Shown: piece after piece, positions 1 through 59,507 of the stretch | How the letters are laid out: the number at the start of each line of letters is the position of its first letter | Position numbering within the stretch: position 1 is the stretch's first letter | Assembly: GCF_016908115.1 (NCBI RefSeq) | Contig: NZ_JAFBDH010000008.1 | Span: 1-59,507, forward strand | Length of the DNA stretch: 59,507 nt | Direction of reading: 5' to 3' | Origin: Peptoniphilus gorbachii | Lineage (GTDB): Bacteria; Bacillota; Clostridia; Tissierellales; Peptoniphilaceae | Position numbers and translations under genes: made by a program | Notes under the pieces: generated by a model | Told to the model about the DNA's origin: nothing | Databases searched by the model: none | The model's input: the letters and a program-made list of their open reading frames with translations, nothing else

Positions 1-34
1 TTGTATGTGATAATGAATTTGCCTTTTGTGCCAT
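1..34 (-). CDS. tnpA: tnpA, N-terminal fragment (continues outside window)
   Basis: Only eleven codons (MAQKANSLSHT) are inside the window. They are identical to the start of the two complete TnpA proteins at 2534-2992 and 51351-51809, so this is the beginning of a third tnpA gene reading leftwards out of the window. Whether the rest is intact cannot be seen. Confidence 0.8.
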   Translation of the reverse strand, partial: MAQKANSLSHT

Positions 35-179
35 ATTAATCACCTCTTATTATTTTAGGTCTGAACAACTCTATTATAATACTGAGGTGATTTTTTGGTA
101 TAACCTATTGTTGCCTACCCGCATAGCGGGTAGTTTTTTGTTTCGCACGCGTTGCGTGCTCAACTGACTAAAGTCACAA
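1..179 (-). mobile_element. IS200/IS605-family element, left end only (copy 1, cut by window edge)
   Basis: Positions 1-179 match, almost base for base, the 5' part of the complete copies at 2391-3136 and 51207-51952. They hold the first codons of tnpA (ATG at 34, reading left), its ribosome binding site, the pairing segment AATCACCTC, and the two end hairpins CTACCCGC/GCGGGTAG and GCACGC/GCGTGC. The conserved sequence stops at 179 (TTGTGAC on the minus strand). The rest of tnpA lies left of the window. One extra T in the run near 95-100 separates it from copy 2. No target duplication is expected for this family. Confidence 0.9.
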
Positions 180-220
180 AAGAAAAGTCTGCAAGATAAC
201 TTGCAGACTTTTCTTTTGTG
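175..220 (-). terminator. Perfect 21-bp inverted repeat, terminator-like, at IS end
   Basis: Arms 175-195 and 200-220 are perfect reverse complements around a 4-nt loop. The core is AAGTCTGCAAG/CTTGCAGACTT, followed on the minus strand by a T-rich tract. The outer five bases of the left arm (175-179) belong to the IS end, so either the target already carried TTGTG or the match is chance. No gene that this would terminate remains in the window: the next gene to the right (371) reads the other way. It may also work as a bidirectional terminator. Confidence 0.6.
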
Positions 221-370
221 GTTTTAATTGATAAATCGACAAAATTTAGTACAAAATTAAAACATTGACTTATTATACTCTCAGGTGTTAATTTATATTT
301 ATAAAAACGCTCCTATCATCTTTATTTAGATAAAGAAAACATTTTTATAAAAGGGAGCAAGGAGGTATTT

Positions 371-2374
371 ATGAAAAATAGCAAGAAGAGATTATTGATA
401 GCAGGTCTTGCATCTAGCATGGTCTTATCCATGGCAGTTCCAACTTTTGCCTGCACAGGTATTATCGTTGGTAAAGACCTAACTACTGATGGTTCTTTTA
501 TCTTTGGAAGAACTGAAGACTACCAAAGAAATAGGACTATGAGACTTGTAACTCACCCACGTGGAGAAATCAAGAAAGGCGATAAGTTGGTTGATGTCAA
601 CAACGGATTTACATACATACACAAGGAAGACTCTTTGAAGTTTTTCTCAACTCCAGACTCTTCTAAGAAGCCAAAAGACATGGAACAAGGTGTCTACGAT
701 GCAGCTGGCTACAATGAAGCAGGTGTAGGTATCTTCTGTACAGTTTCTGCTGACCCATCAGACGAAGTCTTAAAGGCTGATCCTTTTGTAAAAGATGGTG
801 TCAATGAAGCAAGTATGACAACTTTCTTACTTGCACACGCAAAATCAGCTAGGGGCGCAATTGAACTTTTGGCAAAAACTATTGATGAGCAAGGTGCGTC
901 AATGGGTGACATTGTTGCCTTTGGCGACCAAGATGAAGTTTGGTACATGGAAATTTACACTGGCCACCAATATGTTGCCATTAAGTATCCTGCCGACAAA
1001 TTTAGTATCTTCCCTAACGATTTTTGGCTAGGTGGCGTTGACCTTAAGGACAAGGAAAATGTAATTGCATCAAAAGACATAGTCGAAGTTGCAAAGAAAG
1101 CAAAGACTTATAAGGAAACTGCTGATGGTCTTATGGACATGGCTGGATCCTATGGTCCTAAGGAAATTGCAGATACATCTCGTTCAAGAGTTTGGTCTGG
1201 TATTCACGACCTTGACCCTAACTCAAAGCTTCCTTACGATGCAAAGAGATTTGATTTGTTAAACGACCTATCTGAAGGCAGTGAAAAAATAGACATCACT
1301 CATGCATTAAATGTCTTTAGAAATAGACTTGATGGAACTGAATTTACTCCATCAGACAACAAAGCTGAAAGAAAGGCAAACCCTAAGACTCACAAGAGAC
1401 CAATTGGATCCATTAACACAATGCAAGCCCACATCTTCCAAATTAAGAAGGGTTATCCAAAGGAAGCTCCGGGTCTTATGTGGATGACTCTAGGAAGTCC
1501 ACTTAACATTCCTTGGATTCCAATTTTCCCTGACATCAATGACTCTACTCCTGAAGCAAAAAATGATTCACCAGTTTACGATGCAAATTCTTACTACTGG
1601 GTTGGCTCATCAGTTAATGATTTAGTTTCTGGCAACAGAGAAGCTCTTGGCGAATCAACAAGAAAAACTGTAACAGACTTTGAAGCTAAAATCATGAAGG
1701 ACCTTCCTCAAGTTGAAAAGGAATGGATTGAACTTTATTCTAAGGACAAGGCAAAGGCTGCAGAATTCTCTACTGCTAAGACAATGGAATGGGAAAAAGA
1801 AGTTTTTGACCTAGAAAAGGGACTACAAAAGGAACTTTCACAAGTTTCTAAGGCTGACTTAATTGATCACTGGGCAAGAAAGCCTATTATCGATGCCATC
1901 AACAAGAAGTTAATGGTGGGTACAAGTGAGCTTAAGTTCTCTCCAAATGAAAAAATTACTCGCGGAGAATTTATCACTATACTTGGAAGACTTGGCAAGG
2001 TTGATACAAAGAAATATGCTGAAGTTAAGGACAAGAACATCGAAGCTGGCAAGTTCTACACTGAATACATGAACTGGGCTGTTGAAAATAAACTTCTTCC
2101 AAAGACTTCTAAAGCTATGGCTAATGAAGACATCACTCGTGAAGAAATGGCTTACACTTTGGCAGCTTATCTAAAACTAATGGGTGACGACACTTCAACT
2201 CTTAAGATGGTAGTCTTTGATGACCAAAAGGAAATCTCTGACTGGGCTCTTGGCGAAATTGAATTCCTAGTTAATAAGGGAATCCTAAGTGGAACTACTA
2301 ACAACAAGTTCTCACCTAAGGCAAACTTAACAAGGGCAGAAGTAGCACAAATAATTTCAAAGCTTAATAAGTAA
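371..2374 (+). CDS. Secreted C69-family peptidase (dipeptidase A-like) with three SLH repeats
   Basis: 667 aa. Residues 1-27 are a signal peptide (KKR, hydrophobic core, PTFA). Cleavage exposes Cys28 in ACTGIIVGKDLTTDG, the N-terminal nucleophile typical of C69/PepD dipeptidases of the Ntn fold; FGRTEDY follows as in the family. The catalytic part spans about 28-500. The C-terminus holds three S-layer homology repeats (about 505-555, 560-610 and 615-667) with the usual TRGE, TREE and TRAE motifs. This predicts an enzyme anchored to the cell-wall polymer that cleaves dipeptides or small peptides outside the cell. The start is supported by AAGGAGG at 359-365. It is monocistronic and converges on IS copy 2 16 bp downstream. 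Substrate is unknown. Confidence 0.88.
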   Translation: MKNSKKRLLIAGLASSMVLSMAVPTFACTGIIVGKDLTTDGSFIFGRTEDYQRNRTMRLVTHPRGEIKKGDKLVDVNNGFTYIHKEDSLKFFSTPDSSKKPKDMEQGVYDAAGYNEAGVGIFCTVSADPSDEVLKADPFVKDGVNEASMTTFLLAHAKSARGAIELLAKTIDEQGASMGDIVAFGDQDEVWYMEIYTGHQYVAIKYPADKFSIFPNDFWLGGVDLKDKENVIASKDIVEVAKKAKTYKETADGLMDMAGSYGPKEIADTSRSRVWSGIHDLDPNSKLPYDAKRFDLLNDLSEGSEKIDITHALNVFRNRLDGTEFTPSDNKAERKANPKTHKRPIGSINTMQAHIFQIKKGYPKEAPGLMWMTLGSPLNIPWIPIFPDINDSTPEAKNDSPVYDANSYYWVGSSVNDLVSGNREALGESTRKTVTDFEAKIMKDLPQVEKEWIELYSKDKAKAAEFSTAKTMEWEKEVFDLEKGLQKELSQVSKADLIDHWARKPIIDAINKKLMVGTSELKFSPNEKITRGEFITILGRLGKVDTKKYAEVKDKNIEAGKFYTEYMNWAVENKLLPKTSKAMANEDITREEMAYTLAAYLKLMGDDTSTLKMVVFDDQKEISDWALGEIEFLVNKGILSGTTNNKFSPKANLTRAEVAQIISKLNK

Positions 2375-2533
2375 GTTAATAAAACTTGGTAAATCATAAC
2401 CACCCGTAAAACGGGTGGTTTGATCACGGGCTATAAGCCCGAGTGATACCAACCAGCGTCTCAAGGCGCTGGTTTTCACTTTGTTCAAACCTTATTGTTT
2501 TTGCCTCTTTAGCCAGCCCCGAAAGGGCTTTAT

Positions 2534-2992
2534 TCATCTTCTTTTGAATGGATCTTCGTATTCTTTTACACTCAATTTATCCATTGCTATGTCGTGTTGC
2601 TCTTGCTCTCTTATATACCTTGCTATTGTTTGTTCATTCAATCCTACCGTACTTACATAATATCCCTCTGCCCAAAAATGTCTATTTCCAAATTTGTATT
2701 TTAGGTTTGCATGCTTGTCAAACATCATTAGTGCACTTTTTCCTTTCAAGTATCCCATGAAACTTGACACTGATATTTTTGGGGGAATACTAACTAACAT
2801 ATGCACATGATCTGGCATTAAATGTCCTTCTATTATTTCTACTCCTTTGTATTTGCATAATGTCCTAAATATTTCTCCCAAACTATCTCGGTATTGATTA
2901 AATACTATTTTTCGTCTATACTTTGGTGTAAAGACAATATGATATTTACACATCCATTTTGTATGTGATAATGAATTTGCCTTTTGTGCCAT
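2534..2992 (-). CDS. tnpA: IS200-type HUH (Y1) transposase TnpA
   Basis: 152 aa from the ATG at 2992. A GTG nine bases upstream lies inside the ribosome binding site GAGGTGATT and is rejected as the start. The HUH motif HVH appears in PDHVHMLVSIPP, and the catalytic Tyr is in the later GYYVSTVG segment. This family catalyses single-strand DNA excision and insertion through a 5'-phosphotyrosine intermediate. The length is normal for the family. It differs from the copy at 51351 at three residues (K/N, T/M, R/K), so the copies spread recently. Translation is probably damped by pairing of the ribosome binding site with AATCACCTC about 40 nt upstream. Confidence 0.95.
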   Translation of the reverse strand: MAQKANSLSHTKWMCKYHIVFTPKYRRKIVFNQYRDSLGEIFRTLCKYKGVEIIEGHLMPDHVHMLVSIPPKISVSSFMGYLKGKSALMMFDKHANLKYKFGNRHFWAEGYYVSTVGLNEQTIARYIREQEQHDIAMDKLSVKEYEDPFKRR

Positions 2993-3060
2993 ATTAATCA
3001 CCTCTTATTATTTTAGGTCTGAACAACTCTATTATAATACTGAGGTGATTTTTGGTATAA
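2993..3060 (-). promoter_or_regulatory. tnpA leader: stem that sequesters the ribosome binding site
   Basis: On the minus strand AATCACCTC is followed about 40 nt later by GAGGTGATT, its exact complement. The second segment contains the Shine-Dalgarno of tnpA just before the ATG. Pairing would hide the ribosome binding site, as is established for Salmonella IS200. The same leader occurs at copies 1, 3 and 4. Confidence 0.7.
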
Positions 3061-3136
3061 CCTATTGTTGCCTACCCGCATAGCGGGTAGTTTTTTGTTT
3101 CGCACGCGTTGCGTGCTCAACTGACTAAAGTCACAA

Positions 3137-3163
3137 TCAAAAAAGGCGGCTCATGCCGCCTTC
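3137..3163 (-). terminator. Terminator of ftsH
   Basis: Stem GGCGGC (3145-3150), loop TCAT, stem GCCGCC (3155-3160), with a run of A on the plus strand at 3138-3144 that gives a T-tract on the minus strand. It lies 11 bp after the ftsH stop codon. IS copy 2 begins immediately after the T-tract. Confidence 0.85.
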
Positions 3164-3173
3164 TTCATAATTC

Positions 3174-5018
3174 TTATTCTTCTTCATCTAAGTTCTTGTA
3201 CTTTGATAAAATTTCCATAAATTGTTTGCCAGTTATTGTTTCTTCTTCAAGCAAGTATTCTGCAAGTTCCTTCATGGCATCTCTATTGTCTGCAATTAAT
3301 TTTCTGGCATTTTCTTGTGCATTTTTTATGATTTTAACCATTAAGTCGTCAATTTCTTTTCTAGTTTCTTCTGAGCAGTTCATATTTCCATTGTCGCCCA
3401 TATATCTTGAACCAGCATCTTGGAACTTAACCATGCCAAATTCGTCAGCCATGCCATATTGAGTTATCATAGCCCTAGCAGTTTCTGTTGCCTTTTCAAT
3501 ATCATTGGCAGCGCCAGTTGATACTTCATTAAAAATAACTTCTTCTGCTGCACGACCACCACATAGAGTTGTTATATGATTTATTAAATCTTCTCTTGTG
3601 TAGAGATTTTTTTCATCTTTTGGAACCTGCATAGTATAACCTAGAGCTCCTGAAGTTCTTGGTATAATTGTAATTTTTTCCACAGGTTCAGAGCCAGTTT
3701 GAAGGGCAGCAACAAGGGCATGACCAATTTCGTGGTAGGATACCCTCTTCTTTTCTTCTGGAGATAGGATATCTTGCTTTCTTTGTGCTCCTGCAATTAC
3801 AACTTCAATGGATTCTTGTATGTCTTCTTGACGAACTTTGTCGTGACCCATTCTCACTGCACGAAGAGCAGCTTCATTTAAAATATTTGCAAGTTGAGCA
3901 CCAGATGCACCGGCAGTTGATCTTGCAACAAGAGAAAAATCTATGCCATCTTCCATGAGATATTTCTTTGCGTGAACTTTTAATATTTCAATTCTGTCTT
4001 TAAGTGTTGGAAGCTCAACTCTAATTTGTCTATCGAATCTTCCTGGTCTTAAAAGGGCTGGGTCTAAAATTTCTGGTCTATTAGTTGCAGCCAGCATAAC
4101 AATTCCTATGTTTCCGTCAAAACCATCCATTTCAGATAAAAGTTGATTTAAAGTTTGTTCTCTTTCATCGTTACCTGAAATTCCTGCTGAATCTCTCTTC
4201 TTTCCAATTGTGTCAATTTCGTCTATAAAAATAATGCAAGGAGCATTTTTCTTTGCTTCTTCAAAAAGTTCTCTAACTCTTGCAGCTCCACGACCAACAA
4301 ACATTTCCACAAATTCAGAACCTGCAATAGAGAAGAAAGGCACATGGCTTTCGCCAGCAACTGCCCTTGCAAGTAAAGTTTTACCAGTTCCTGGAGGTCC
4401 TACAAGTAGGGCTCCCTTTGGGCATTTCGCACCAATTCTTGTGTACTTCTTTGGATTTTTTAAATAATCTACAATTTCAACAAGAGATTCTTCTGCTTCC
4501 TCTTGACCTGCGACATCTCCAAAATTTACAGTCTCGCCGTTGGGTTCGTATTTTTCAATTTTCTTTCCGCCGCCAAAAATTCCTCCAGGACCACCAGTCA
4601 TGCCTGCTATTTTCTTGGCAAAGGCTCTTTGTAAAAAGAAAAATAACAAAATTGGAATTCCCCAAGTCATTATAAAGGACATAAATAAACTTGGTTTTTC
4701 AGGAATTTCTGAGGAATATTTTACATTTTTTTCCTCTAAATCTTTAACAAGATCTGGGTCTTCCATCTTTCCAGTTTTGTAAATTTTTTTATCATCTTTT
4801 AAAGTGTAAAGAATTTGGTCCTGCCTAAAGTTTACTTCCTCAATTTTTCCCTGGCTAAGATTTCTTCTAAAATCGGAATACGCTGAGTTTTCCATGCTAT
4901 TTTGTGAAAGCATAGGAAGAATCAACCAGTTTAGGGCAAAAACTGCCAAGATGGCAATTAAGTAATATCTAAGTAAATTATATTGAGGTCTCTTATTATT
5001 ATTGCCTTTATTTTCCAT
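3174..5018 (-). CDS. ftsH: ATP-dependent zinc metalloprotease FtsH
   Basis: 614 aa membrane protease that degrades misfolded and regulatory membrane and cytosolic proteins as a hexamer. Two membrane segments (about 15-36 and 108-131) flank a small external domain. The AAA domain has Walker A GPPGTGKT (207-214), Walker B IIFIDEID (262-269) and the second region of homology [20 protein letters not shown]. The zinc site is HEIGH (429-433), where most homologues have HEAGH; both His and the Glu are kept. The third ligand is probably the Asp in [11 protein letters not shown]. The start is supported by AGGAGG just upstream of 5018. It has its own terminator and follows the nrdB terminator, so it is probably transcribed alone. 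Confidence 0.97.
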
Positions 5019-5062
5019 AATTTTCCTCCTATTAAATTGGGATGAATTAAAATTTTTTAATT

Positions 5063-5087
5063 AAAAAACCGGATGCAAGATCCGGCT
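5063..5087 (-). terminator. Terminator of nrdAB
   Basis: Stem CCGGAT (5069-5074) and ATCCGG (5080-5085) with loop GCAAG, followed by TTTTTT on the minus strand. It lies just past the nrdB stop at 5102. Confidence 0.85.
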
Positions 5088-5101
5088 AAAATTTTATTTT
5101 A

Positions 5102-6142
5102 TTAAAGGTCGTCTTCTATTACAGAAGATTTTGAATAAGCAGATGGCTTTGCTTCAAAAAAGTCTGTCTTAATTTGATTTGGATCGGAGTATTCGCTAAC
5201 CCATTTCATGGATTCAGGTTCTTCAGTGTTTTCTTCAAAGAGATTCCCGAAACCTAAATTTCTTGAACGCAAGTTGCCAAGATACATAATGTAGTCTTCG
5301 ATCATTTTTTCATTTAGACCTCTAATTTCATCGCCTATGACATACTTACCCCAAGAGATTTCTTCTTCAACACCTTTTTTAAGCATCTCTTTATATTTTT
5401 TTATATTTTCATCAGTAAATATTTCTGGATTTTCCTTTTTCATCTCAAGAATAATACTTCTAAAGAGCCAAAGGTGAGTGTTCTCATCTCTGTTGATGTA
5501 TCTTATTTCAGATACTGTGCCAGGCATCTTGCCCATTCTTCCAAGATTGTAGAAGAAGGAGAAGCCTGAGTAAAAATAAATTCCTTCCAAAATATAATTT
5601 GCAATAAGAGCCTTCATGAAGTTGTCTATATTTTCGTCTTCATAAAAATCTTGGTATTGGTCGCCAATAAATTTATTTCTCTTTAAGAGAACTTCATCGT
5701 CCTTGTATTGGTAGAGAATTTCTTCTCTCTCTTCTGGGGAACAAATTGTGTCAAGAATATAAGAGTAAGATTGAGAGTGAATTGACTCTTGATAACCTTG
5801 AATTGATAGACACAAATTTATTTCATTTGCCGTTACATAGGATTGAAGTTTTGGAATTTGTGCAGTTTGTAGTGAATCAAGATATATTAGAAAAGACAAA
5901 ATTTTGTCGTAGGCAGTCTTTTCATGGACATCTAAAAGTCTATAGTCCTTTACATCTTGTGAAAGATTAATTTCTTCTGGTATCCAAAAATTATTCATGG
6001 CTTGGCGATACCAGTCACTAGTCCAGCTGTATTTTAGATTGTTAAAATCATTTAAATTTGTTGTGTTTCCATTAATAACTCTTCTCTTTGATGTTTCAAT
6101 GTCGCCCTTTTCATTAAAAAGACCTCTTTTTGAAAGTTTCAT
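5102..6142 (-). CDS. nrdB: Class I ribonucleotide reductase, beta (radical-generating) subunit
   Basis: 346 aa from the ATG at 6142, which has GGAGG five to nine bases upstream. An upstream GTG at 6166 overlaps the end of nrdA and is rejected. The dimetal ligands seen by comparison with E. coli NrdB are the Asp in YLDSLQ, the Glu and His in YQESIHS, the Glu in ILEGIYFY, and the Glu and His in RDENTH. The radical Tyr follows in SQSY. All are present, so this is a metal/Tyr class I enzyme and not the ligand-depleted Ie type. It works with NrdA to make deoxyribonucleotides. No nrdI or nrdH gene is adjacent. The requirement for oxygen or another oxidant is notable in a presumed anaerobe. Confidence 0.93.
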   Translation of the reverse strand: MKLSKRGLFNEKGDIETSKRRVINGNTTNLNDFNNLKYSWTSDWYRQAMNNFWIPEEINLSQDVKDYRLLDVHEKTAYDKILSFLIYLDSLQTAQIPKLQSYVTANEINLCLSIQGYQESIHSQSYSYILDTICSPEEREEILYQYKDDEVLLKRNKFIGDQYQDFYEDENIDNFMKALIANYILEGIYFYSGFSFFYNLGRMGKMPGTVSEIRYINRDENTHLWLFRSIILEMKKENPEIFTDENIKKYKEMLKKGVEEEISWGKYVIGDEIRGLNEKMIEDYIMYLGNLRSRNLGFGNLFEENTEEPESMKWVSEYSDPNQIKTDFFEAKPSAYSKSSVIEDDL

Positions 6143-6155
6143 AATTCCTCCTATT

Positions 6156-8684: not shown

Positions 8685-8717
8685 GAATCCCCCATATAGT
8701 ATAATTTTTATAATTTT

Positions 8718-8746
8718 ATTCTAAATACTACTATATATTATCACAA
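8718..8746 (-). promoter_or_regulatory. Probable nrdA promoter with an NrdR-like box in its spacer
   Basis: On the minus strand TTGTGA (8741-8746) and TAGAAT (8718-8723) are 17 bp apart. The segment 8728-8743 matches the NrdR consensus acaCwATATATwGtgt at about 11 of 16 positions, including the ATATATAGT core. A weaker partial match lies near 8687-8702, about four helical turns away. NrdR represses nrd operons in many bacteria; nrdR itself is not in this window. Confidence 0.4.
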
Positions 8747-8840
8747 AGAATAATTTATAAGTAGACTAATCATAAAATAAAATAATTAATTATTTTAATT
8801 TTATTCTTATTTTTCATAAAAAATTTTTTTAGAAATTTAT

Positions 8841-8873
8841 AAAAAAATCCCAAGAGCCTTTGCCCTTGGGATT
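8841..8873 (-). terminator. Terminator of the stalk-domain lipoprotein gene
   Basis: Stem AATCCCAAGAGC (8846-8857) pairs with GCCCTTGGGATT (8862-8873), and a run of seven T follows on the minus strand. The stop codon of the upstream gene is at 8897. Confidence 0.88.
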
Positions 8874-8896
8874 CTAATTTTTAATTTTAAATTAAA

Positions 8897-49330: not shown

Positions 49331-49341
49331 TAGGAGGAATT

Positions 49342-50050: not shown

Positions 50051-50086
50051 TTTACTAGAAAAATTTGCCCATAAAAATATTTTTTA

Positions 50087-50112: not shown

Positions 50113-50126
50113 AATAGGAGGTTTTT

Positions 50127-51170
50127 ATGCGCAAATTTGATTACAGTTTATTAAAAGAAAAAAAGTGGGATGCAGAAATCTTAAATTATATTTCACAAAT
50201 TAGCGAGTATAAGGGAAGACAAGAATTATACTTAAGTCAGAAGCCTACAGTTCTTAATAATCTCGTAGAACTTGCCATTATACAGAGTACTCAAAGTTCT
50301 AATGAAATCGAGGGAATAAGAACAACTGACTCTAGAATAAGGGATTTAGTCAAGAAAAAAGTTGCTCCCAAAAATAGAGATGAAGAAGAAATTCTAGGTT
50401 ACAAGGAAGTTCTATCTACAATTCATGAATCTTTTGATTATATGCCAATAAATTCAAAAATAATTTTGCAACTTCATAGAGACCTCTACAAATTTTCAAA
50501 TAAATCAATTGGTGGAAAATATAAAAATTCGCAAAATTATATTTCAGAAACAAAAAAAGATGGTGAGACAATAGTTAGGTTTAGGCCTCTTGACCCCTTT
50601 GAAACTCCACAAGCAATTGAAAAAATTTGCCAAGAGTACAATAGAGAAATTGACAAGGGAGAAATAAACCCTCTAATACTTATTCCAATTTTTATACACG
50701 ATTTCTTGTGCATTCACCCTTTCAACGATGGAAATGGAAGGATGTCGAGGCTTCTAACAACTTTGTTGCTATACAAGTTAGGATATGTTGTAGGAAGATA
50801 TATAAGTCTTGAAGAAAAAATTGAAAAAACTAAGACAAATTACTATATTGCCCTAGAGAAAAGTGGTGTAAATTGGCACGAAAATAGTGAAGATCCAACA
50901 TATTTCATAAAATATATTTTGGCTATTATACTTGCTGCCTATAGAGATTTTGAAGATAGGGTAAATATTTTCGATACAAAGTTATCAGCCCTTGATCAAG
51001 TTTTAAATGCTATTGACAAAAAAATTGGAAAATTTACCAAGAGTGAAATCATGGAACTTGCTCCAGCAATTAGTAAGTCCTCTGTAGAAAAGTCTCTAAA
51101 AGAATTGTTAGAAAAAGATATAATTGAAAGGCATGGAAGTGGAAGGGCAACCTATTATACAAAAAAATAA
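50127..51170 (+). CDS. Fic-domain AMP-transferase with internal inhibitory motif and C-terminal wHTH
   Basis: 347 aa. The N-terminal inhibitory helix has S58-NEI-E62-G63, fitting [S/T]xxxE[G/N]. The Fic core is HPFNDGNGR (197-205), a complete active motif. The C-terminal 60 residues (KFTKSEIMELAPAISKSSVEKSLKELLEKD-like; core SKSSVEKSLKELLEK) form a winged helix. This is the class II layout: the enzyme adenylylates target proteins and restrains itself. AGGAGG lies at 50116-50121. No antitoxin gene is adjacent. The wHTH together with the inverted repeat over the promoter suggests autoregulation. Confidence 0.9.
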   Translation: MRKFDYSLLKEKKWDAEILNYISQISEYKGRQELYLSQKPTVLNNLVELAIIQSTQSSNEIEGIRTTDSRIRDLVKKKVAPKNRDEEEILGYKEVLSTIHESFDYMPINSKIILQLHRDLYKFSNKSIGGKYKNSQNYISETKKDGETIVRFRPLDPFETPQAIEKICQEYNREIDKGEINPLILIPIFIHDFLCIHPFNDGNGRMSRLLTTLLLYKLGYVVGRYISLEEKIEKTKTNYYIALEKSGVNWHENSEDPTYFIKYILAIILAAYRDFEDRVNIFDTKLSALDQVLNAIDKKIGKFTKSEIMELAPAISKSSVEKSLKELLEKDIIERHGSGRATYYTKK

Positions 51171-51178
51171 TTTTTTTA

Positions 51179-51206
51179 GGATAAGATTAAACTCTTATCC
51201 TTTTTA
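51179..51206 (+). terminator. Terminator of the Fic gene
   Basis: Stem GGATAAG (51179-51185) and CTTATCC (51194-51200) followed by TTTTTA. The IS begins directly after the T-tract. Confidence 0.8.
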
Positions 51207-51952
51207 TTGTGACTTTAGTCAGTTGAGCACGCAACGCGTGCGAAACATAAAACTACCCGCTATGCGGGTAGGCAACAATAGGTTATACCAAAAATCACCT
51301 CAGTATTATAATAGAGTTGTTCAGACCTAAAATAATAAGAGGTGATTAATATGGCACAAAAGGCAAATTCATTATCACACACAAAATGGATGTGTAAATA
51401 TCATATTGTCTTTACACCAAATTATAGACGAAAAATAGTATTTAATCAATACCGAGATAGTTTGGGAGAAATATTTAGGATGTTATGTAAATACAAAGGA
51501 GTAGAAATAATAGAAGGACATTTAATGCCAGATCATGTGCATATGTTAGTTAGTATTCCTCCAAAAATATCAGTGTCAAGTTTCATGGGATACTTGAAAG
51601 GGAAAAGTGCACTAATGATGTTTGACAAGCATGCAAACCTAAAATACAAATTTGGAAATAGACATTTTTGGGCAGAGGGATATTATGTAAGTACAGTAGG
51701 ATTGAATGAACAAACAATAGCAAAGTATATAAGAGAGCAAGAGCAACACGACATAGCAATGGATAAATTGAGTGTAAAAGAATACGAAGATCCATTCAAA
51801 AGAAGATGAATGAAGCCCTTTCAGGGCTGGCTAAAGAGGCAAAAACAATAAGGTTTGAACAAAGTGAAAACCAGCGCCTTGAGACGCTGGTTGGTATCAC
51901 TCGGGCTTATAGCCCGTAATCAAACCACCCGTTTTACGGGTGGTTATGATTT
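51207..51952 (+). mobile_element. IS200/IS605-family insertion sequence (copy 3, complete)
   Basis: About 746 bp, nearly identical to copy 2 but in inverse orientation. The left end is TTGTGAC at 51207 and the right end GGTTATGATTT at about 51952. The same hairpins flank tnpA. The right end runs into the last codons of znuB on the opposite strand. Confidence 0.93.
51351..51809 (+). CDS. tnpA: IS200-type HUH (Y1) transposase TnpA
   Basis: 152 aa from ATG 51351 with GAGGTGA upstream. HVH and Tyr motifs are as in the copy at 2534-2992. It differs from that copy at three residues only, and both appear intact. Confidence 0.95.
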   Translation: MAQKANSLSHTKWMCKYHIVFTPNYRRKIVFNQYRDSLGEIFRMLCKYKGVEIIEGHLMPDHVHMLVSIPPKISVSSFMGYLKGKSALMMFDKHANLKYKFGNRHFWAEGYYVSTVGLNEQTIAKYIREQEQHDIAMDKLSVKEYEDPFKRR

Positions 51953-52750
51953 CTTGTTTTTTAGTTTTGAAATTAAGAGGCAAACTAGCATTCCTAGGGA
52001 GGCAATAACTACTATTGCTCCACCTGGTTTTAGGTCAAAGTAGTAGGACAGGATGACACCACTTAGGGTGTAAACAAGTCCAAGAACCAGGGTGTTTATA
52101 AAGGTAGCCTTGTAGGATTTACTTATTAATAATGATGATGCCACTGGTAATACTATAAGCGATGTCACCATGAGGGCACCAATTATTTTGGCTGAAAGGG
52201 CAATGGTAAGGGCAGATAAAAGTGTGAATATTGAATTTATTCTCGCCACATTTACCCCACTCATCTTGGCAAGTTGAGGATCAACTGCAATGGAGAGGAG
52301 ACCAAAATAATAAATTAAAGAAATTGCAACAACAAGTATAAAGGTTATGAGGACGATTATAACGTCAGCCTTTGATACTGATGCAATACTACCAAAGAGA
52401 TAGGCGTCAAAGCTGCTTCCTCCTGGCGAAAAGTCTGACAAGAGGGCAGCAAGTCCCAATCCCATGGAGGTTATTATGGCAGTTGCCATGTCACCAAATT
52501 GGGGGAACTTCTTCCTGATTTTTTCAATGGAGAAGGCTCCAATTACACAGGCGAAGATGGCACCAATTAGGGGGTTGATTGAAAGGATTAGTCCCAAGGC
52601 AACTCCAGCCAGTGAAACGTGAGATAGGGCATCCCCCATCATAGAAGTTCCACGATTTACTATTACAATTCCAATGAGGGGAATTATTATGGAAATCATG
52701 AGGGAAACTAAGAGAGTTCTAATCATAAAGCTATACTGTAACAAGTTCAA
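51944..52750 (-). CDS. znuB: Zinc ABC transporter permease ZnuB
   Basis: 268 aa with seven to nine hydrophobic helices. Family motifs: DALSHVSLAGVALGL, TSMGLGLAALLSDFSPGG and IIGALMVTSLIVLPVA. It forms the membrane channel for ZnuA-bound zinc or a related metal. It starts inside the end of znuC (20-bp overlap). The last two codons and stop (AAA TCA TAA) lie in sequence shared by the ends of both complete IS copies, so the IS defines the C-terminus. Confidence 0.93.
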   Translation of the reverse strand: MNLLQYSFMIRTLLVSLMISIIIPLIGIVIVNRGTSMMGDALSHVSLAGVALGLILSINPLIGAIFACVIGAFSIEKIRKKFPQFGDMATAIITSMGLGLAALLSDFSPGGSSFDAYLFGSIASVSKADVIIVLITFILVVAISLIYYFGLLSIAVDPQLAKMSGVNVARINSIFTLLSALTIALSAKIIGALMVTSLIVLPVASSLLISKSYKATFINTLVLGLVYTLSGVILSYYFDLKPGGAIVVIASLGMLVCLLISKLKNKKS

Positions 52751-53405
52751 GACCTCCCTTCTTTAGTTCGTAAAACTTATCCATTTGCAAATTGTTTTTC
52801 ACCCAGTCTAGCTCGTGGGTTATTAAAATTATGGATACGTCAAAATTTTTGTTTAGGTCTTCAAGGGTTTTGGCAAACTGCCTCTTTGAATTTTCGTCGA
52901 CACCAGATGTTGGCTCGTCAAAAATTAAAATCTCTGGATTGTTCATAAGGGCCCTTGTGATTACAACCCTTTGTCTCAAGCCACCAGACAGGTCCCTTAT
53001 AGGATAGTCTGCGTACTTCTCAAGATTCATCTTCTTTAAAAGTTCTATAGTTTTGTCGTAGTGGGTCTTTCTTGGAATTTTTATCATCCCCATGCTCTCA
53101 TAGAGTTGTAGGGTTACAAGCTCCTTGACGGAAATGGGAAATGTATATAAGTTTTCCTTTTGTGATTGAGGAACGTAGCCGATTTTTTTCAGTGAATCTA
53201 CACTTATATCTTCTTCAAAAATTTTTATTTCTCCAGACCTTAGCTTGAGCTCCCCAATAATTATTTTTATTAAAGTTGTCTTGCCAACTCCGTTGCCACC
53301 GATTATAGTGATTTTCTCCTTGTTCATCAGGGTTAGGTTTAAGTCCCTGAGAACTGGGTCCCTATCGTAGGCAAAGTTGGCATTTTTTATTTCAATAGCC
53401 TTCAT
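52731..53405 (-). CDS. znuC: Zinc ABC transporter ATPase ZnuC
   Basis: 224 aa. Walker A GGNGVGKTT, signature LSGGLRQR and Walker B LIFDEPTSGVD are present. It starts 3 bp after the end of znuA and overlaps znuB by 20 bp. Confidence 0.95.
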   Translation of the reverse strand: MKAIEIKNANFAYDRDPVLRDLNLTLMNKEKITIIGGNGVGKTTLIKIIIGELKLRSGEIKIFEEDISVDSLKKIGYVPQSQKENLYTFPISVKELVTLQLYESMGMIKIPRKTHYDKTIELLKKMNLEKYADYPIRDLSGGLRQRVVITRALMNNPEILIFDEPTSGVDENSKRQFAKTLEDLNKNFDVSIILITHELDWVKNNLQMDKFYELKKGGLELVTV

Positions 53406-53408
53406 ATA

Positions 53409-54704
53409 TCACCTCAATGATTCATATATATTTTTCAAATTGTATTCCATCATGTCTATAAAGTCGTCTCCAACGTCCCTTTCAATATCCCTGTTAATAT
53501 ATTCCATGGATATTAGGCCTTTTAGGTCGGCGCCAATTTCTTCTGCGATTATGTCTGCCCCATTTTTTGGCATACCATATTCGTAAAAGATTGTATTGAT
53601 CTTTCTATCCCTTGCGTCATCTATGGCCCTGGTGATCTTCTTTATACTTGGAGAATCTGTACTTGTTAGGCCTTGGAGAGGATATTGGATGAGGTCAAAG
53701 TCCTTGGCAAGGTAGGCAAAGGCAAAGTGACTCACAATAAATTCCTTTCTCTTAGTTTTCTTAAAGAGGTCCCTGTACTTGTAGTCAAGCTCTGTAAGCT
53801 TTCTCAAAGTCTTGGAAGCATTCTTCCTGTAGAGGCTTTTATTCTCTGGATAGAGCTTGGACATCTTGTATTCAATATCATTTACATATCTCTTGGCATT
53901 TCTAATACTCATCCAAGAGTGAGGATCGTAGGTTATCTTGTCCTCGTTAGTAGTTGAAGTATCACGAAGAACATCAAGTTTCATAGGATCTCCATGGGCA
54001 TCAAGCATCTTGTAAGAAAGTAGGTCTGTGGAAATTCTGTCGCTAAACATAATCCACCTTCCCTTCTTAGGAAGCTTGTAATAAATTTCTCCATGCTCAT
54101 GGCCCATCGCAAGCTTGTAAGTCTTCCTGTCCTCAACCTTTATTAAAGATTTTTGTGGAATATCTTCTCCGGGGTCCTCCATGATCTTTCGTCCCATCTT
54201 AACAAGGTCCTTTTCAGAGTAGTCCTTGTCGCAATAGAGGAAGGCAATCCTCATGTTGTCTTCGTGGGTGTGACCAAAGTCAAAGGAGTAGGTTTCCTTG
54301 TCAAAGTCGCCAGCCACCATGTATTGGAAGTCTCCAATGGCAGCAGCCCCCTTGTAGGAAATTAAATTTACCCCACTGGCAAGATTTAGGATATCCAAAT
54401 TTGGAAGGGTATTTGCAATTGAGTCTGCCCAGTTTTCCATATTTGCTCCATTTATAATCAAAAGGTCAGAATTTGACAGGTCCTTTATCCTTCTTGGAGT
54501 TGGCTCCCAGAGGTGGGGGTCCTGGTTTTTTGGCATGAGGATCCTTAGGTCCACAGTGTCACCAACTACGCTTTTAGTTAAGCTGTAGACTGGATAAAAG
54601 GAAGTGTAGACGACAGATTTTGCCTTGTCATCCTTTTCTGCTTTACAGGCAACTAGAGAAAAAGCCAAGAGAAATACAGTCATAATTTTTATTATTTTTG
54701 GCAT
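53409..54704 (-). CDS. znuA: Zinc-binding lipoprotein ZnuA with a large extra domain
   Basis: 431 aa; typical ZnuA/AdcA are about 300. The lipobox is LVAC with Cys20. The metal ligands of the family are visible: His64 (DPHLWEP), His262 (YDPHSW), His326 (VSHFAFAY) and an acidic residue near 401. Between the first and second ligands are 198 residues instead of roughly 80. The extra part (about 118-250) holds GHTH (144-147), a Cys158, GHEH (201-204) and His237. The usual His-rich loop is absent, so this insertion may take its role in metal capture. I do not recognise the inserted domain. Confidence 0.88.
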   Translation of the reverse strand: MPKIIKIMTVFLLAFSLVACKAEKDDKAKSVVYTSFYPVYSLTKSVVGDTVDLRILMPKNQDPHLWEPTPRRIKDLSNSDLLIINGANMENWADSIANTLPNLDILNLASGVNLISYKGAAAIGDFQYMVAGDFDKETYSFDFGHTHEDNMRIAFLYCDKDYSEKDLVKMGRKIMEDPGEDIPQKSLIKVEDRKTYKLAMGHEHGEIYYKLPKKGRWIMFSDRISTDLLSYKMLDAHGDPMKLDVLRDTSTTNEDKITYDPHSWMSIRNAKRYVNDIEYKMSKLYPENKSLYRKNASKTLRKLTELDYKYRDLFKKTKRKEFIVSHFAFAYLAKDFDLIQYPLQGLTSTDSPSIKKITRAIDDARDRKINTIFYEYGMPKNGADIIAEEIGADLKGLISMEYINRDIERDVGDDFIDMMEYNLKNIYESLR

Positions 54705-54730
54705 AAAGTCTCCTTTCTCTTAAAAAAATT

Positions 54731-54770
54731 TATCCCCGATGAACATCAAGAGATGAAACATCGAGGATAG
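54731..54770 (-). terminator. Hairpin between zinT and znuA
   Basis: Stem TTATCCCCGATG (54731-54742) and CATCGAGGATAG (54760-54771) with one mismatch, followed by a T-run on the minus strand. It terminates or attenuates zinT transcription; partial read-through would give more ZinT than ZnuABC. Confidence 0.75.
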
Positions 54771-54785
54771 AAAAAAATAGAAATA

Positions 54786-55421
54786 TTATTCAGCAACTTC
54801 TTCGTAAACTTGATCGATAGTTACTGTTGGACTAACAAATGTTGGGTACCAGTCATCTTTAGCTAACATTTCTTCAGCACTTCCTCCAACTCTTAAGTGG
54901 AAGTGTGGCATGTGGTCTTCGCCGTGAACTGGCATTAATAAAATTGTTGGATATTTTCCATTAGAAGAAAACTCGTACCAATAAAGAGTTTTTCCACCGT
55001 GTTCCATTGGGTGTTTGTCTACAAGTTTGTAGTCAGCCTTGTCAATTTCCTCTCCTTCAGGTCCAGTTAAGAAAGTTATGCTATCTCCATCAACCTTTAG
55101 GGCTCCAAAATCAACTGCAACGTGGTCAGCAAAATTCTTTTTAGCTTGATCTTCAGTGATGTTGTCTCTCTTAGCAACTTCCTCGTAAGCTCCCTTTAGT
55201 CCAGGATCATCAAGATAGTTGGCAATGTTATTCCATTCTCCGTCCCAGTCAGAAAGAGCAACTTCATCAGTAGCCTTATCTTCAGCCTTAGCCTCTACAT
55301 TTTGTTCAACCTTAGTGTTGTTCTCTTTAGGCTCATTCTTAGTTTCTTCCTTATTGCAAGCAACAAGAAGTGTTGCGGATAGGGCCAATAGGCCTAGTGA
55401 CAGTCTAAATTTTTTATTCAT
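54786..55421 (-). CDS. zinT: ZinT (YodA)-family zinc-binding lipoprotein
   Basis: 211 aa. The lipobox is LLVAC with Cys22, followed by a Lys/Glu/Asn-rich linker (about 23-55). The ZinT domain (about 55-211) has LSDWDGEWNNIANYL and the metal motif HGEDHMPHFHLRVGGS. ZinT passes zinc to ZnuA in Gram-negative bacteria; here it heads the zinT-znuA-znuC-znuB order. AGGAGG precedes the ATG. Confidence 0.92.
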   Translation of the reverse strand: MNKKFRLSLGLLALSATLLVACNKEETKNEPKENNTKVEQNVEAKAEDKATDEVALSDWDGEWNNIANYLDDPGLKGAYEEVAKRDNITEDQAKKNFADHVAVDFGALKVDGDSITFLTGPEGEEIDKADYKLVDKHPMEHGGKTLYWYEFSSNGKYPTILLMPVHGEDHMPHFHLRVGGSAEEMLAKDDWYPTFVSPTVTIDQVYEEVAE

Positions 55422-55439
55422 AATTCCTCCTTAAAATAT

Positions 55440-55527
55440 AAGTTATGTAATATTTTGTGAAGAATTTAAAGAAATTAGAAGAAAAAATTTTCTTATATGA
55501 AAGGATTTACAAAATATTACATAACTT
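55440..55527 (-). promoter_or_regulatory. 19-bp inverted repeat in the zinT leader, probable metal-regulator operators
   Basis: Arms 55440-55458 and 55509-55527 (AAGTTATGTAATATTTTGT and its exact complement) are 50 bp apart. Each arm begins just after a possible -35 on the minus strand (TTCACA and TTTACA), i.e. in a promoter spacer. ATGATATTAATCAT at 55532-55545 resembles a Fur-family site. Either two inverted operators or a long mRNA stem before the ribosome binding site. Between 55546 and 55809 I see no gene. Confidence 0.55.
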
Positions 55528-55720
55528 GTAAATGATATTAATCATCATTTTATAAGCCTAGTATAGCAAGTTCTAAAGTTTTATTTTAAAGTACTTATGC
55601 AAATTTATTTAATAAACACGAAGGATTATTATTTAGAAAAATTATTTTATTAAGATTTATTTGATCCCTCATAAAAAACCTTTAGAAATAATTGATTTTT
55701 AAAATAAAAATGAAAGGAAG

Positions 55721-55790
55721 TTACCCACAAAGCTCTCCCCCTAAGAGGAGTCCAGCAAGGCCTTATATTTATTTCTAGTTTTTTGGGTAA
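55721..55790 (+). promoter_or_regulatory. Unusual GC-rich leader segment before msrAB
   Basis: TTACCCA (55721-55727) and TTGGGTAA (55783-55790) could close a stem around a segment that is far richer in G and C (CTCTCCCCCTAAGAGGAG, 55733-55750) than the sequence around it. It may be a leader RNA structure or a remnant of another element. No known riboswitch was recognised. Confidence 0.35.
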
Positions 55791-55809
55791 AGGTAAGTTA
55801 GGTGATTAT

Positions 55810-56751
55810 ATGAAAAATATTAAAATTATATATTTAGCTGGTGGATGTTTTTGGGGAACAGAAGCCTATTTTAAAAAATTAAAGGGAATTTCTAAGACTC
55901 TTGTAGGTTATGCCAATGGCGATAGCGACGACACAAGTTATGAAATTGTATCAAGTACGGACCATGCAGAGACAGTAAAAATTTATTACGATTTTTCAAA
56001 AATTTCTCTTACAGAAATTCTCCTCCACTATTTTAGAATTATTAATCCAAAATCAATAAATAGACAGGGTAATGACATTGGAAGACAGTACCGCACAGGA
56101 ATTTATTGGGAAGACGGCGACTCTGAGTCAGAAAAAAATGTAAAGGACTTTATAAAATATGAGGAAGAAAAAATTGGCAAAGTTGCAGTAGAAATTTCTC
56201 CTATTAAAAATTTTGTAAAGGCAGAAGATTATCATCAAGACTACCTAGACAAAAATCCAGGAGGATATTGTCATGTAAATTTAAATAGAGCAGATGATCC
56301 AATAATAGATGATGATAGAGAATTTCTTGAAGAAAATAAAAGAGCTTATCTCGATGATATTTCCTATGATGTAATGGAAAATGCTGGCACTGAAAGACCT
56401 TTTACAAGCAAGTTAAACGACGAGTACAGAAGGGGTATTTATGTAGATAAACTTTCAAAAAAACCACTTTTTGCATCAAGTGACAAATTTGACTCTGGCT
56501 GTGGCTGGCCTTCTTTTTCTCGACCAATTGTATCAACTTATTTAGATGAAAATGTGGATAGGTCCTTTGGCATGCTAAGAACTGAAGTAAGATCAAATTC
56601 TTCAGACTCACACCTTGGTCATGTATTTCCTGACGGGCCAAGGGATAAGGGTGGCCTTAGGTATTGTATAAATGGTGCAGCCCTTTTATTTATTCCCTAT
56701 GAAGAAATGGATGAGAAGGGATATTCAGACTATAAAATTTTTGTTAAATAA
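55810..56751 (+). CDS. msrAB: Peptide methionine sulfoxide reductase MsrA-MsrB fusion
   Basis: 313 aa from ATG 55810, with AGGTGA upstream; a TTG at 55783 is rejected. MsrA (about 1-160) has the catalytic Cys13 in GGCFWGTEAYF. MsrB (about 185-313) has SGCGWPSFSRPI and the catalytic Cys286 in RYCING. It reduces both S and R sulfoxides of methionine. The extra zinc CxxC pairs of some MsrB are absent. It has its own terminator. Confidence 0.95.
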   Translation: MKNIKIIYLAGGCFWGTEAYFKKLKGISKTLVGYANGDSDDTSYEIVSSTDHAETVKIYYDFSKISLTEILLHYFRIINPKSINRQGNDIGRQYRTGIYWEDGDSESEKNVKDFIKYEEEKIGKVAVEISPIKNFVKAEDYHQDYLDKNPGGYCHVNLNRADDPIIDDDREFLEENKRAYLDDISYDVMENAGTERPFTSKLNDEYRRGIYVDKLSKKPLFASSDKFDSGCGWPSFSRPIVSTYLDENVDRSFGMLRTEVRSNSSDSHLGHVFPDGPRDKGGLRYCINGAALLFIPYEEMDEKGYSDYKIFVK

Positions 56752-56770
56752 AATTAATTATAAAAATTTT

Positions 56771-56798
56771 AGGACCAATATTTTTGGTCCTTTTTTTT
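56771..56798 (+). terminator. Terminator of msrAB
   Basis: Stem AGGACC (56771-56776) and GGTCCT (56786-56791) followed by eight T. Confidence 0.85.
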
Positions 56799-56893
56799 AA
56801 AATCCTATGATTTTTATTTTAAAAATAAAAATATTTAGTGATTTAAAAAATGATTTCCTAATTTTTATAGCTTTATCAGGCTGAAATTTTTCG

Positions 56894-56922
56894 TTGAAAA
56901 AGATTTTTTGATATGGTAATCT
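56894..56922 (+). promoter_or_regulatory. Probable glsA promoter
   Basis: TTGAAA (56894-56899) and TAATCT (56917-56922) are 17 bp apart. Transcription would begin at about 56929, i.e. at the only in-frame ATG, which argues against that ATG as the start codon. Confidence 0.45.
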
Positions 56923-56970
56923 ATTTACATGAGGAAAACAATCCCAAATAAATTTAAGGAGGTGAATTTT

Positions 56971-57894
56971 ATTATTTATACAGAAGAAATTTTGGAAGAG
57001 GCTCTCAATTTAGGTAGAAAATACTTACATGAAGGAGCTGTTGCAGATTATATTCCTGAACTTGCAAAAGTTGAAGCAAATAAAGTTGCAATTTCCACTA
57101 TTGAAGATGGAAAATTGACAAGTGTTGGAGATTCTAAAATAAAATTTTCTATTCAGTCTATTGTAAAGGTAATTTTATATGCTCTTGCAATGAAAAATTA
57201 CAAAGTTGCTGAACTTAAAAAATATGTAGGAGTTAGGCCTTCTGCAAAACCTTTTAACAGTGTTATTGAACTTGAACTTTCAGAAAAGAGGATACCAGTA
57301 AATCCTTTTATAAATGCTGGAGCAATTATTATAGTAGCTATTTTACACAATGTTTATAGAGAAAAAACTTTTGATGTAATACTTAAAAAAGCAAGTGAAT
57401 TTCTGGGAGAAGAAGTTGATTACAGTAGAGAAATTGCAGAGTCAGAAAAGGAATCATCTTTTACAAATAGGACCCTAATTTATTTAATGTTAGCTAAGGG
57501 AATTTTACCAAGTGACACAAAGGTAGAAGAAGTTTTAGATACATATTTTAAAGCTTGTTCAATTCTTGTTAACACAGAAAACTTAGCTCACATGTCCTAT
57601 GTAATTTCCAATGATGGAATTGACTTAGATGGAAAAGAAATTATAACTGCAAAGGAAGCAAAAGTTTTAAGGTCCCTTATGGCAACGTGTGGGACTTATG
57701 ACTACTCTGGAGATTTTGCAATAAGAGTGGGATTACCTGCTAAATCTGGAGTTGGTGGAGGAATTGTTACTGCATCAAAAAATAAAAATGGACTTGCAGT
57801 ATATGCTCCAAGACTTGATAAACATGGCAACTCATATTCTGGAGTTAGAATGTTAGAATTCTTATCGCAAAAATTAGACTTATCAATTTATTAG
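56971..57894 (+). CDS. glsA: Glutaminase, apparently with an AUU start
   Basis: 308 aa if read from ATT 56971. The serine-dependent glutaminase motifs are FSIQSIVKV (Ser-x-x-Lys), NPFINAGAI, CGTYDYSGDFAIRVGLPAKSG-like and SGVGGGIV. It hydrolyses glutamine to glutamate and ammonia. The open frame extends to ATG 56929, but a perfect AAGGAGG (56956-56962) lies inside that extension, eight bases before ATT 56971. A GTG at 56962 overlaps the Shine-Dalgarno. Starting at 56971 gives an N-terminus aligned with E. coli and Bacillus glutaminases. alsT follows after 11 bp. Confidence 0.9.
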   Translation: MIYTEEILEEALNLGRKYLHEGAVADYIPELAKVEANKVAISTIEDGKLTSVGDSKIKFSIQSIVKVILYALAMKNYKVAELKKYVGVRPSAKPFNSVIELELSEKRIPVNPFINAGAIIIVAILHNVYREKTFDVILKKASEFLGEEVDYSREIAESEKESSFTNRTLIYLMLAKGILPSDTKVEEVLDTYFKACSILVNTENLAHMSYVISNDGIDLDGKEIITAKEAKVLRSLMATCGTYDYSGDFAIRVGLPAKSGVGGGIVTASKNKNGLAVYAPRLDKHGNSYSGVRMLEFLSQKLDLSIY

Positions 57895-57905
57895 AGAGGT
57901 AAATA

Positions 57906-59309
57906 ATGGAAAAATTACTTTCAGCCGTTAATGGCGTTTTATATTATCCAATACTTATTATAGTATTACTAGCTTGTGGATTTTACTTCACAATTAGAAC
58001 AAAATTTATACAATTTGGATTACTTGGTGAAGCTTTTAAAGTTATAAAAGAAAAACCAGAAGGAAAAGATGATGTTTCTTCCTTCCAAGCACTTATGGTA
58101 TCAACAGCATCAAGAGTTGGTACAGGTAATATCGTTGGTGTTTCCAATGCAATTTGCCTTGGTGGACCAGGCGCAGTATTTTGGATGTGGATTATAGCAC
58201 TTATTGGTGGTGCATCAGCCTTTATAGAATCAACACTTGCACAAATTTATAAAAAACGTGGTGCAGATGGTGTATCTTATGGTGGACCTTCTTACTACAT
58301 AGAAAATGCCCTTGGATCAAGAGGACTTGGAGTTTTATTTGCAATAGCACTTATTGCAACTTATGCAGTAGGATTTAATATGCTTGCATCCTTTAACCTA
58401 CAAGACTCCTTTAGAGTTTATGACTTCTACGTTCCAGGAAAAACTTCTTGGATGATAGGTGCAGTTCTTGCTATATTAGCAGGCTATTGTATCCTTGGTG
58501 GTGGAAAGAGAATTATAAAATATACATCTTTACTAGTACCAATTATGGGCGTTATCTTCGTTATTATGGCTCTTGTAATGATAGTTATAAACATTAAAAA
58601 TATTCCAGCAATGTTTGGCATGATCTTTGAAGATGCCTTTAACTTTAGGGCAATTTTTGGTGGAGTTGCAGGTTCTGCTCTAGTACAAGGTATTAAGAGA
58701 GGACTTTACTCTAATGAAGCTGGTATGGGTTCTGCACCAAATGCTGCAGCATCAGCATCAGTTTCTCACCCTGTAAAACAAGGTCTAGTTCAAATGATTT
58801 CTGTATTCCTAGATACAATTGTTATTTGTTCAGCAACAGCTTTTATGTCACTTGCATCAGGCATTGCACCAACAGAAGAATTAGCAGGAGCACCTTTTGT
58901 ACAAGCATCACTTTCAACAGTATTTGGATCTTATGGAAATTTATTTATAACAATTTCTCTTGCTTTATTTGCTTTCACAACTCTACTTGGAAATCTTTAC
59001 TATGTAGATTCTTGTTTAACATACTTAAACAAAAAAACACCTTCAAAGACATTTATGCTTTGCTACAGAATTATTGCAACAATCCTAATTTTTGTAGGTG
59101 CAGGTATGGAAATGAATCTTGCATGGGACGTAGCTGATTTCTTAATGGGAGTTATGTGCTTAATTAACATTCCATCAATTATTATTCTTGGTGGCACTGC
59201 TCTTAAAGCTCTTGAAGACTATAAGGAACAAAGAGAAGAAGGCAAGAACCCAGTATTTAAAGCAGAAACAATTGGAATTGACACATCTAAATTAGAATAC
59301 TGGAAATAA
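57906..59309 (+). CDS. alsT: Sodium:alanine/glycine-type symporter (AGCS), probably glutamine uptake
   Basis: 467 aa membrane protein with about ten helices. AGCS motifs: TASRVGTGNIVGVSNAI, GPGAVFWMWIIALIGGASAF, GLYSNEAGMGSAPNAAA. GAGAGGT precedes the ATG. The operon with glutaminase matches the Bacillus glsA-glnT pair, so glutamine is the likely substrate although the family also carries alanine and glycine. Confidence 0.93.
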   Translation: MEKLLSAVNGVLYYPILIIVLLACGFYFTIRTKFIQFGLLGEAFKVIKEKPEGKDDVSSFQALMVSTASRVGTGNIVGVSNAICLGGPGAVFWMWIIALIGGASAFIESTLAQIYKKRGADGVSYGGPSYYIENALGSRGLGVLFAIALIATYAVGFNMLASFNLQDSFRVYDFYVPGKTSWMIGAVLAILAGYCILGGGKRIIKYTSLLVPIMGVIFVIMALVMIVINIKNIPAMFGMIFEDAFNFRAIFGGVAGSALVQGIKRGLYSNEAGMGSAPNAAASASVSHPVKQGLVQMISVFLDTIVICSATAFMSLASGIAPTEELAGAPFVQASLSTVFGSYGNLFITISLALFAFTTLLGNLYYVDSCLTYLNKKTPSKTFMLCYRIIATILIFVGAGMEMNLAWDVADFLMGVMCLINIPSIIILGGTALKALEDYKEQREEGKNPVFKAETIGIDTSKLEYWK

Positions 59310-59339
59310 GCAAGAATTAAAAATTAAAATATTTAAAGT

Positions 59340-59364
59340 GGACCTAATCTATTAGGTCCCTTTA
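59340..59364 (+). terminator. Terminator of glsA-alsT
   Basis: Stem GGACCTAA (59340-59347) and TTAGGTCC (59352-59359) with a four-base loop, followed by CTTTA. IS copy 4 begins at the end of the tract. Confidence 0.82.
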
Positions 59365-59507
59365 TTGTGACTTTAGTCAGTTGAGCACGCAACGCGTGCG
59401 AAACATAAAACGACCCGCTATGCGGGTAGGCAACAATAGGTTATACCAAAAATCACCTCAGTATTATAATAGAGTTGTTCAGACCTAAAATAATAAGAGG
59501 TGATTAA
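59365..59507 (+). mobile_element. IS200/IS605-family element, left end only (copy 4, cut by window edge)
   Basis: It matches copies 1-3 from TTGTGAC through the end hairpins and the AATCACCTC segment to the ribosome binding site. tnpA would start just beyond 59507. A C-to-G-type change at about 59391 disturbs one pair of the CTACCCGC stem. Confidence 0.9.

Follow-up and report, generated by a model that had tools for sequence, protein, structure and literature searches.

We predict, with a probability of roughly 0.8, that the TnpA transposase of IS200-type elements targets single-stranded DNA in which a hairpin is followed by a T-rich stretch, and that elements of this clade insert immediately 3' of this structure, on the T-rich strand. 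In genomes, the target hairpin is almost always a Rho-independent terminator. The window (the whole 59,507-nucleotide stretch analysed) corresponds to contig 8 of a draft genome (18 contigs, 1.87 Mb) of Peptoniphilus gorbachii. It carries one 743-bp, tnpA-only element as two complete copies and two contig-end pieces (copy 1 is cut by the start of the window and contig, copy 4 by their end). The copies and the hairpins beside them are as follows.

1..177, minus strand: IS200-type element copy 1, left-end part only (178 query bases matched at 99% identity)
180..215, minus strand: hairpin and T-rich tract 5' of copy 1, with a 16-bp stem (sequence reading and stem score)
2392..3134, minus strand: IS200-type element copy 2, complete, 743 bp (ends from copy comparison)
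2534..2992, minus strand: tnpA of copy 2, Y1/HUH transposase (Pfam PF01797, E 2.6e-40, frame 2534-3001; the ATG start was chosen by analogy with copy 3)
3145..3160, minus strand: ftsH terminator hairpin, GGCGGC-loop-GCCGCC, its T-rich tract being plus-strand 3135-3144 (FtsH by Pfam)
51178..51201, plus strand: terminator hairpin of a Fic-domain gene, T-rich tract to 51208 (gene named by Pfam)
51209..51951, plus strand: IS200-type element copy 3, complete, 743 bp (copy comparison)
51351..51809, plus strand: tnpA of copy 3 (Pfam PF01797 on 51342-51809; NCBIfam NF033573 on 51351-51809)
51923..51951, plus strand: right end of copy 3, hairpin AACCACCCG...CGGGTGGTT plus ATGATT (target hairpins resemble it in geometry)
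59340..59359, plus strand: terminator hairpin of a sodium:alanine symporter gene, GGACCTAA-TCTA-TTAGGTCC, T-rich tract to 59366 (Pfam)
59367..59507, plus strand: IS200-type element copy 4, left-end part only (sequence comparison with the other copies)

The initial annotation proposed that a hairpin and T-run directly precede the left end at all four window copies, and direct reading of each site bears this out. The bases it gave just outside the left-end TTGTGAC (CTT, TGA, TTA and TTA) also match the sequence. The TT of TTGTGAC could belong to the target or to the element, and empty-site joins fit both. The copy 1 hairpin becomes a 21-bp stem at 175-220 once element bases are counted in. Because it is symmetrical and no same-strand gene precedes it inside the window, it is not a demonstrated terminator of a same-strand gene. 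It lies upstream of a peptidase gene (371-2374, plus strand) whose product is a Peptidase C69 with S-layer homology domains. At the other end of copy 3, the stop codon of a convergent ABC-3 family gene (51944-52750, minus strand) is supplied by the right end of the element (51944-51951); thus, this copy inserted at the very 3' end of that gene.

The assignment to the IS200 type, also made in the initial annotation, is upheld. TnpA scores 155.8 bits against NCBIfam NF033573 (cut-off 55), which identifies it as a Y1 HUH transposase. The residues H62, H64 and Y126, which we take to be catalytic, are invariant in alignment A1. By sequence, the closest proteins of solved structure are 2ec2, 2f4f, the ISHp608 transposase and other transposases, among which is 2xm3, that of ISDra2. 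The sole open reading frame of at least 80 aa within copies 2 and 3 is tnpA and there is no tnpB, as expected for the IS200 group. Members of that group (IS200C of E. coli, IS200 of Salmonella) likewise have tnpA only, a Y1/HUH transposase and subterminal hairpins, and comparison with the E. coli copies revealed no structural difference from the window element. A motif search located ten right ends in the genome, each with the hairpin and ATGATT, after which the sequences diverge. One complete copy (L003, G000:C7:9548-10295) is probably inactive, as judged from an in-frame stop in its tnpA.

Ten left ends are readable in the source genome (five complete copies and five pieces), and each lies 3' of a hairpin and T-rich stretch on its own strand. 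All ten reach a stem score of at least 20, versus 125 of 4000 (3.1%) control TT sites matched for T content and taken from 400 kb of the same genome. Among T-matched intergenic controls (with open frames of 90 codons or more standing in for genes) the proportion rises to 380/3000 (12.7%), and for those within 200 nt after a same-strand stop codon it is 814/2856 (28.5%). A diverged related element in the same genome (L016, 70% identity) has the same layout, with a score of 28.5. Five further pieces are right-end-only, without a readable left end, and may represent the missing halves of the five copies present only as left-end pieces.

The survey of TnpA relatives covered the genus (14 genomes), the family (61 genomes) and named GTDB genomes (the best 80 of 566 loci), with plasmid and E. 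coli records as additional sources. Taxa represented include Streptococcus, Lachnospiraceae, Paenibacillus, Urinicoccus, Adlercreutzia, Senegalimassilia, Collinsella, Treponema, Pelolinea, Desulfovibrio, Xenorhabdus and E. coli; some are MAG contigs, and labels are as binned. Motif placement matched 185 left ends and left 31 loci unmatched. Nine of the matched rows were withheld, but six (L036, L056, L060, L085, L103, L124) returned to the set with either a manually chosen boundary or an earlier one. Manual placement of ten unmatched loci brought the total to 192 left ends, of which 182 remained as distinct after de-duplication (the near-identical contig pieces L051, L052 and L065 of one genome are possibly not all merged). 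Excluded were 21 unmatched loci (truncated, decayed, interrupted, contig-end, masked or outside the clade) along with L045, L165 and L212. Right-end-only pieces and loci without a usable tnpA start match (e.g., L044, L064, L090, L091, L093-L095, L136) are also outside the count. Low-identity Y1 matches (L067, L070, L087, L118, L119) were excluded as outside the clade, and are unusable as a control because their left ends are undefined.

The hairpin score, like the motifs, was set after the sequences had been inspected. At a threshold of 18, 169 of the 182 left ends (92.9%) have a hairpin, compared with 94 of 2213 (4.2%) T-matched control sites flanking 176 of these loci. At a threshold of 20 the counts are 166/182 and 59/2213. 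When folding energy is computed using DNA parameters, sites and controls are distinguished with an AUC of 0.97 (182 versus 1844). Thus, the proposal that insertion targets a hairpin with a T-rich tract is supported across the clade, and the opposite outcome, in which most copies would lack a hairpin at a rate equal to chance, is not what we find. Chance T-tracts as an explanation are ruled out by the T-matched controls, both in the source genome and in the clade.

Thirteen of the 182 sites score below 18. We read four of these (L076, L107, L139, L203) as hairpins with loops or interruptions past the scoring limit and four (L132, L162, L183, L211) as weaker hairpins. No convincing hairpin was recognized on reading at the other five (L060, L080, L113, L152, L199), so the hairpin requirement is not absolute. 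Outside the count, the decayed left-end remnants L089 and L209 score 12.5 and 11.5, with no clear hairpin, and L191, in which the left end is interrupted by other DNA, has a hairpin score of 31. In this Streptococcus locus the interrupting DNA (near 1276-1300) has inverted TAGTAGATT-like edges and the upstream host hairpin is intact. Two Peptoniphilaceae IS200 relatives, L109 (1065-1180, plus strand) and L113 (1655-1770, minus strand), contain matches above the gathering score to Rfam STnc490, an sRNA family (Hfq-bound) known in Salmonella IS200.

The T-rich stretch could in principle be read alone, through pairing of an A-rich guide with T, the hairpins then being incidental to terminator T runs. 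The 4-mer 5' of the left hairpin is indeed mostly AAAA, TAAA or AATA (146 of 167 found), that 5' of the right hairpin is CAAA or AAAA in 132 of 146, and 143 of the 182 sites have 6 or 7 T among the last 8 bases. However, controls matched for T number carry a hairpin in only 3-4% of cases, and five sites with strong hairpins (scores 21-33; L047, L171, L179, L181, L201) have T at only 4 or 5 of the final 8 positions. We consider this reading very improbable. The A-rich 4-mers themselves are consistent with guide pairing like that of IS608, by analogy with that element.

The hairpin is on one side of the element and at a narrow distance from it. Of 145 elements, 135 have a hairpin scoring at least 18 on the 5' side of the left end and 8 have one beyond the right end. 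Measured from the outermost G-C pair, the insertion point is at a median distance of 8 nt (5-12 nt in 153 of 169 sites, 7-9 nt in 80). The bases before the shared TT are variable, unlike a fixed 4-5 nt target of the IS605 type without a hairpin; invariance of the TT is partly by construction, since the boundary was set at the last TT near the left end. Within the element, subterminal hairpins were found by pattern at 167/182 left ends and 146/182 right ends, in keeping with the IS200 group. The linker from hairpin to right end is 8 nt (103) or 9 nt (38) in 141 of the 146 right ends that met the pattern on which these figures depend. The 8-nt target spacing may reflect no more than how long terminator T tracts are, and it does not prove a ruler because natural tracts are similar in length.

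Most sites are gene ends: a same-strand open frame (at least 60 codons) ends within 200 nt before 148 of 180 sites, versus 148 of 483 random upstream-flank positions. Rfam was run on 20 chosen loci, with distances worked out by hand, and identified features on the strand of the element at several of them. In L040 and L073 a T-box leader ends about 20-25 nt short of the element, a 5S rRNA is upstream in L018 and L105, and a tRNA is upstream in L107, L142 and L199. Thus, several kinds of transcript end are used. In L040 (T-box 2103-2327, minus strand) and L073 (T-box 1081-1323, plus strand) the element sits between the T-box leader and the next gene, which in L073 encodes an ABC transporter ATPase with a NIL domain; the next frame of L040 (395 aa) had no Pfam match. 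In L047, the insertion point is within a transposase gene with rve and helix-turn-helix domains and interrupts the second of these. The element is antisense to that gene and lies 7 nt past a palindrome hairpin whose stem is 9 bp long, and just 4 of the last 8 bases are T.

The initial annotation saw in these sites a safe-site strategy. The location 3' of same-strand open frames agrees with this, but the T-box leaders and the L047 palindrome do not, and they favor recognition of shape over safety. This suggests that a structure is recognized, rather than that elements survive at harmless places. Insulation of tnpA from outside transcription, the other putative benefit, is plausible. A related alternative is broad insertion at T-rich tracts, with selection purging gene-damaging insertions and leaving the post-terminator copies. 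The excess of gene ends and the 28.5% of post-stop T-rich intergenic sites that have a hairpin both point in that direction. However, such purging does not readily explain the tight spacing and strand, nor ten of ten sites in the source genome against that 28.5%. The hits at T-box leaders and inside a transposase gene also count against it, as do the hairpin-free plasmid sites of ISEfa4 (below), and we regard it as improbable.

A transcriptional mark is a further alternative: RNA polymerase paused at terminators, or its open bubble, would expose single-stranded DNA, and TnpA would never touch the hairpin. Most sites resemble working terminators on reading, and the strand with the T tract is the non-template one in their transcription. 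However, the L047 palindrome is inside a gene, opposite to it in strand and poor in T, and transposition of IS608 and ISDra2 is reported as replication-linked in the retrieved text of PMC5371812 and PMC6006769. We judge a purely transcriptional mark unlikely, its odds overlapping those of hairpin targeting by TnpA because the two are partly compatible.

The association with terminator hairpins extends to E. coli IS200C, the TnpA of which is 62% identical to one member of the survey set and which has a match in 3071 of 5426 complete E. coli genomes. All ten retrieved chromosomal IS200C sites and the plasmid site L137 score at least 20; the E. coli sites are a non-random sample (10 of 60 matches listed; for seven of the ten, the row gave the name of a neighbouring gene). 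Eight IS200C insertions were compared with K-12 stretches. Four of these, at the ends of dgcZ, exbD, ompX and arcA (L221, L222, L224, L227), have an exact empty site, nothing being duplicated or lost; this precise joint without target duplication conforms to the IS200 group. L226 differs by small changes, L225 has different downstream sequence, and no match to L220 or L223 was identified within the K-12 stretches compared.

The sole control from outside the clade is ISEfa4 of E. faecium (tnpA plus tnpB) at eight plasmid loci, of which two are the same site. Its edge is approximate, being the limit of the sequence common to the eight loci. None of the seven distinct sites has a hairpin scoring at least 18 (best 15), and all share TTTAAC at the left edge. 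Hairpin targeting as a trait of all Y1 transposons is thereby ruled out. IS608, ISDra2 and ISEfa4 (IS605 group) likewise use a Y1 transposase. In the retrieved part of PMC5934647, the IS605-group target is a tetra- or pentanucleotide, unlike the hairpin and T-rich target of the window clade, and guide bases 5' of the IS608 end hairpins pair with the cleavage site. TnpA-REP proteins are related Y1 enzymes that act on palindromic single-stranded DNA (PMC8266576). They are domesticated transposases, and the NCBIfam REP model gives only 32-38 bits on the window TnpA (cut-off 80). The known parallel in site choice is the group IIC introns, which like the IS200 clade insert after terminator hairpins; the available portions of PMC3898094 and PMC7923331 describe insertion after intrinsic terminators or attC hairpins, with the hairpin as a key determinant. 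However, these are retroelements (intron RNA plus reverse transcriptase), unrelated to TnpA in protein and chemistry, and the only open reading frame of at least 80 aa in the window element is tnpA.

Beyond the demonstrated association, its strand and spacing, its absence in one IS605-group relative and the exact IS200C empty sites, we infer direct hairpin binding, guide pairing and a role for replication. The coding strand of a terminator would fold when single-stranded (e.g., on the lagging-strand template), and TnpA holding the transposon circle junction would capture the folded host hairpin. The A-rich guide bases 5' of the transposon hairpins would pair with T-rich target bases, and the cut would fall about 8 nt from the hairpin, after TT, with no target duplication. 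The resemblance of target geometry to the right end of the element suggests that the host hairpin may be seated like that of the transposon itself. One possible, though somewhat doubtful, version is that the terminator acts as a counterfeit right end, with the host hairpin in the right-end pocket, which would bring the TT, some 8 nt from it, into the active site. If so, the host terminator would remain as the outer hairpin of the left end, maybe needed for the next excision, and IS200 would therefore share one end structure with the host genome.

No statement of terminator targeting by IS200 was found in the literature searched, which largely excluded subscription journals, and none is present in the retrieved text of PMC9208149, PMC2965389, PMC2515195, PMC2828477, PMC5371812, PMC3898094, PMC5934647, PMC7923331, PMC6006769, PMC3627910 or PMC7290912. 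Within that text, convergent gene-IS-gene arrangements are over-represented for IS200 among ten families (PMC9208149), which agrees with a terminator preference. Terminators upstream of transposase genes have been taken as part of insertion sequences (PMC2965389). In Salmonella, sRNAs expressed just upstream of IS200 were attributed to the element's own terminator, and IS200 was reported to have its own internal terminator (PMC2515195). By analogy with the sites described here, the upstream terminators in both might be explained more simply as host terminators present where the element inserted. Annotation calls for caution, as a terminator just upstream of an IS200 tnpA may be that of the host and not of the element.

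IS200 elements are small and widespread, and form a very common group of bacterial transposons. In 1989, Casadesus and Roth reportedly found IS200 insertions to be absent among spontaneous Salmonella mutants; a strong terminator preference would explain this, and may explain the rarity of IS200 mutations in general. Terminator targeting by IS200 would be a protein-based parallel to the group IIC introns, and single-strand transposition would gain a target rule based on DNA shape. Landing at terminators would permit IS200 to spread with little damage to genes.
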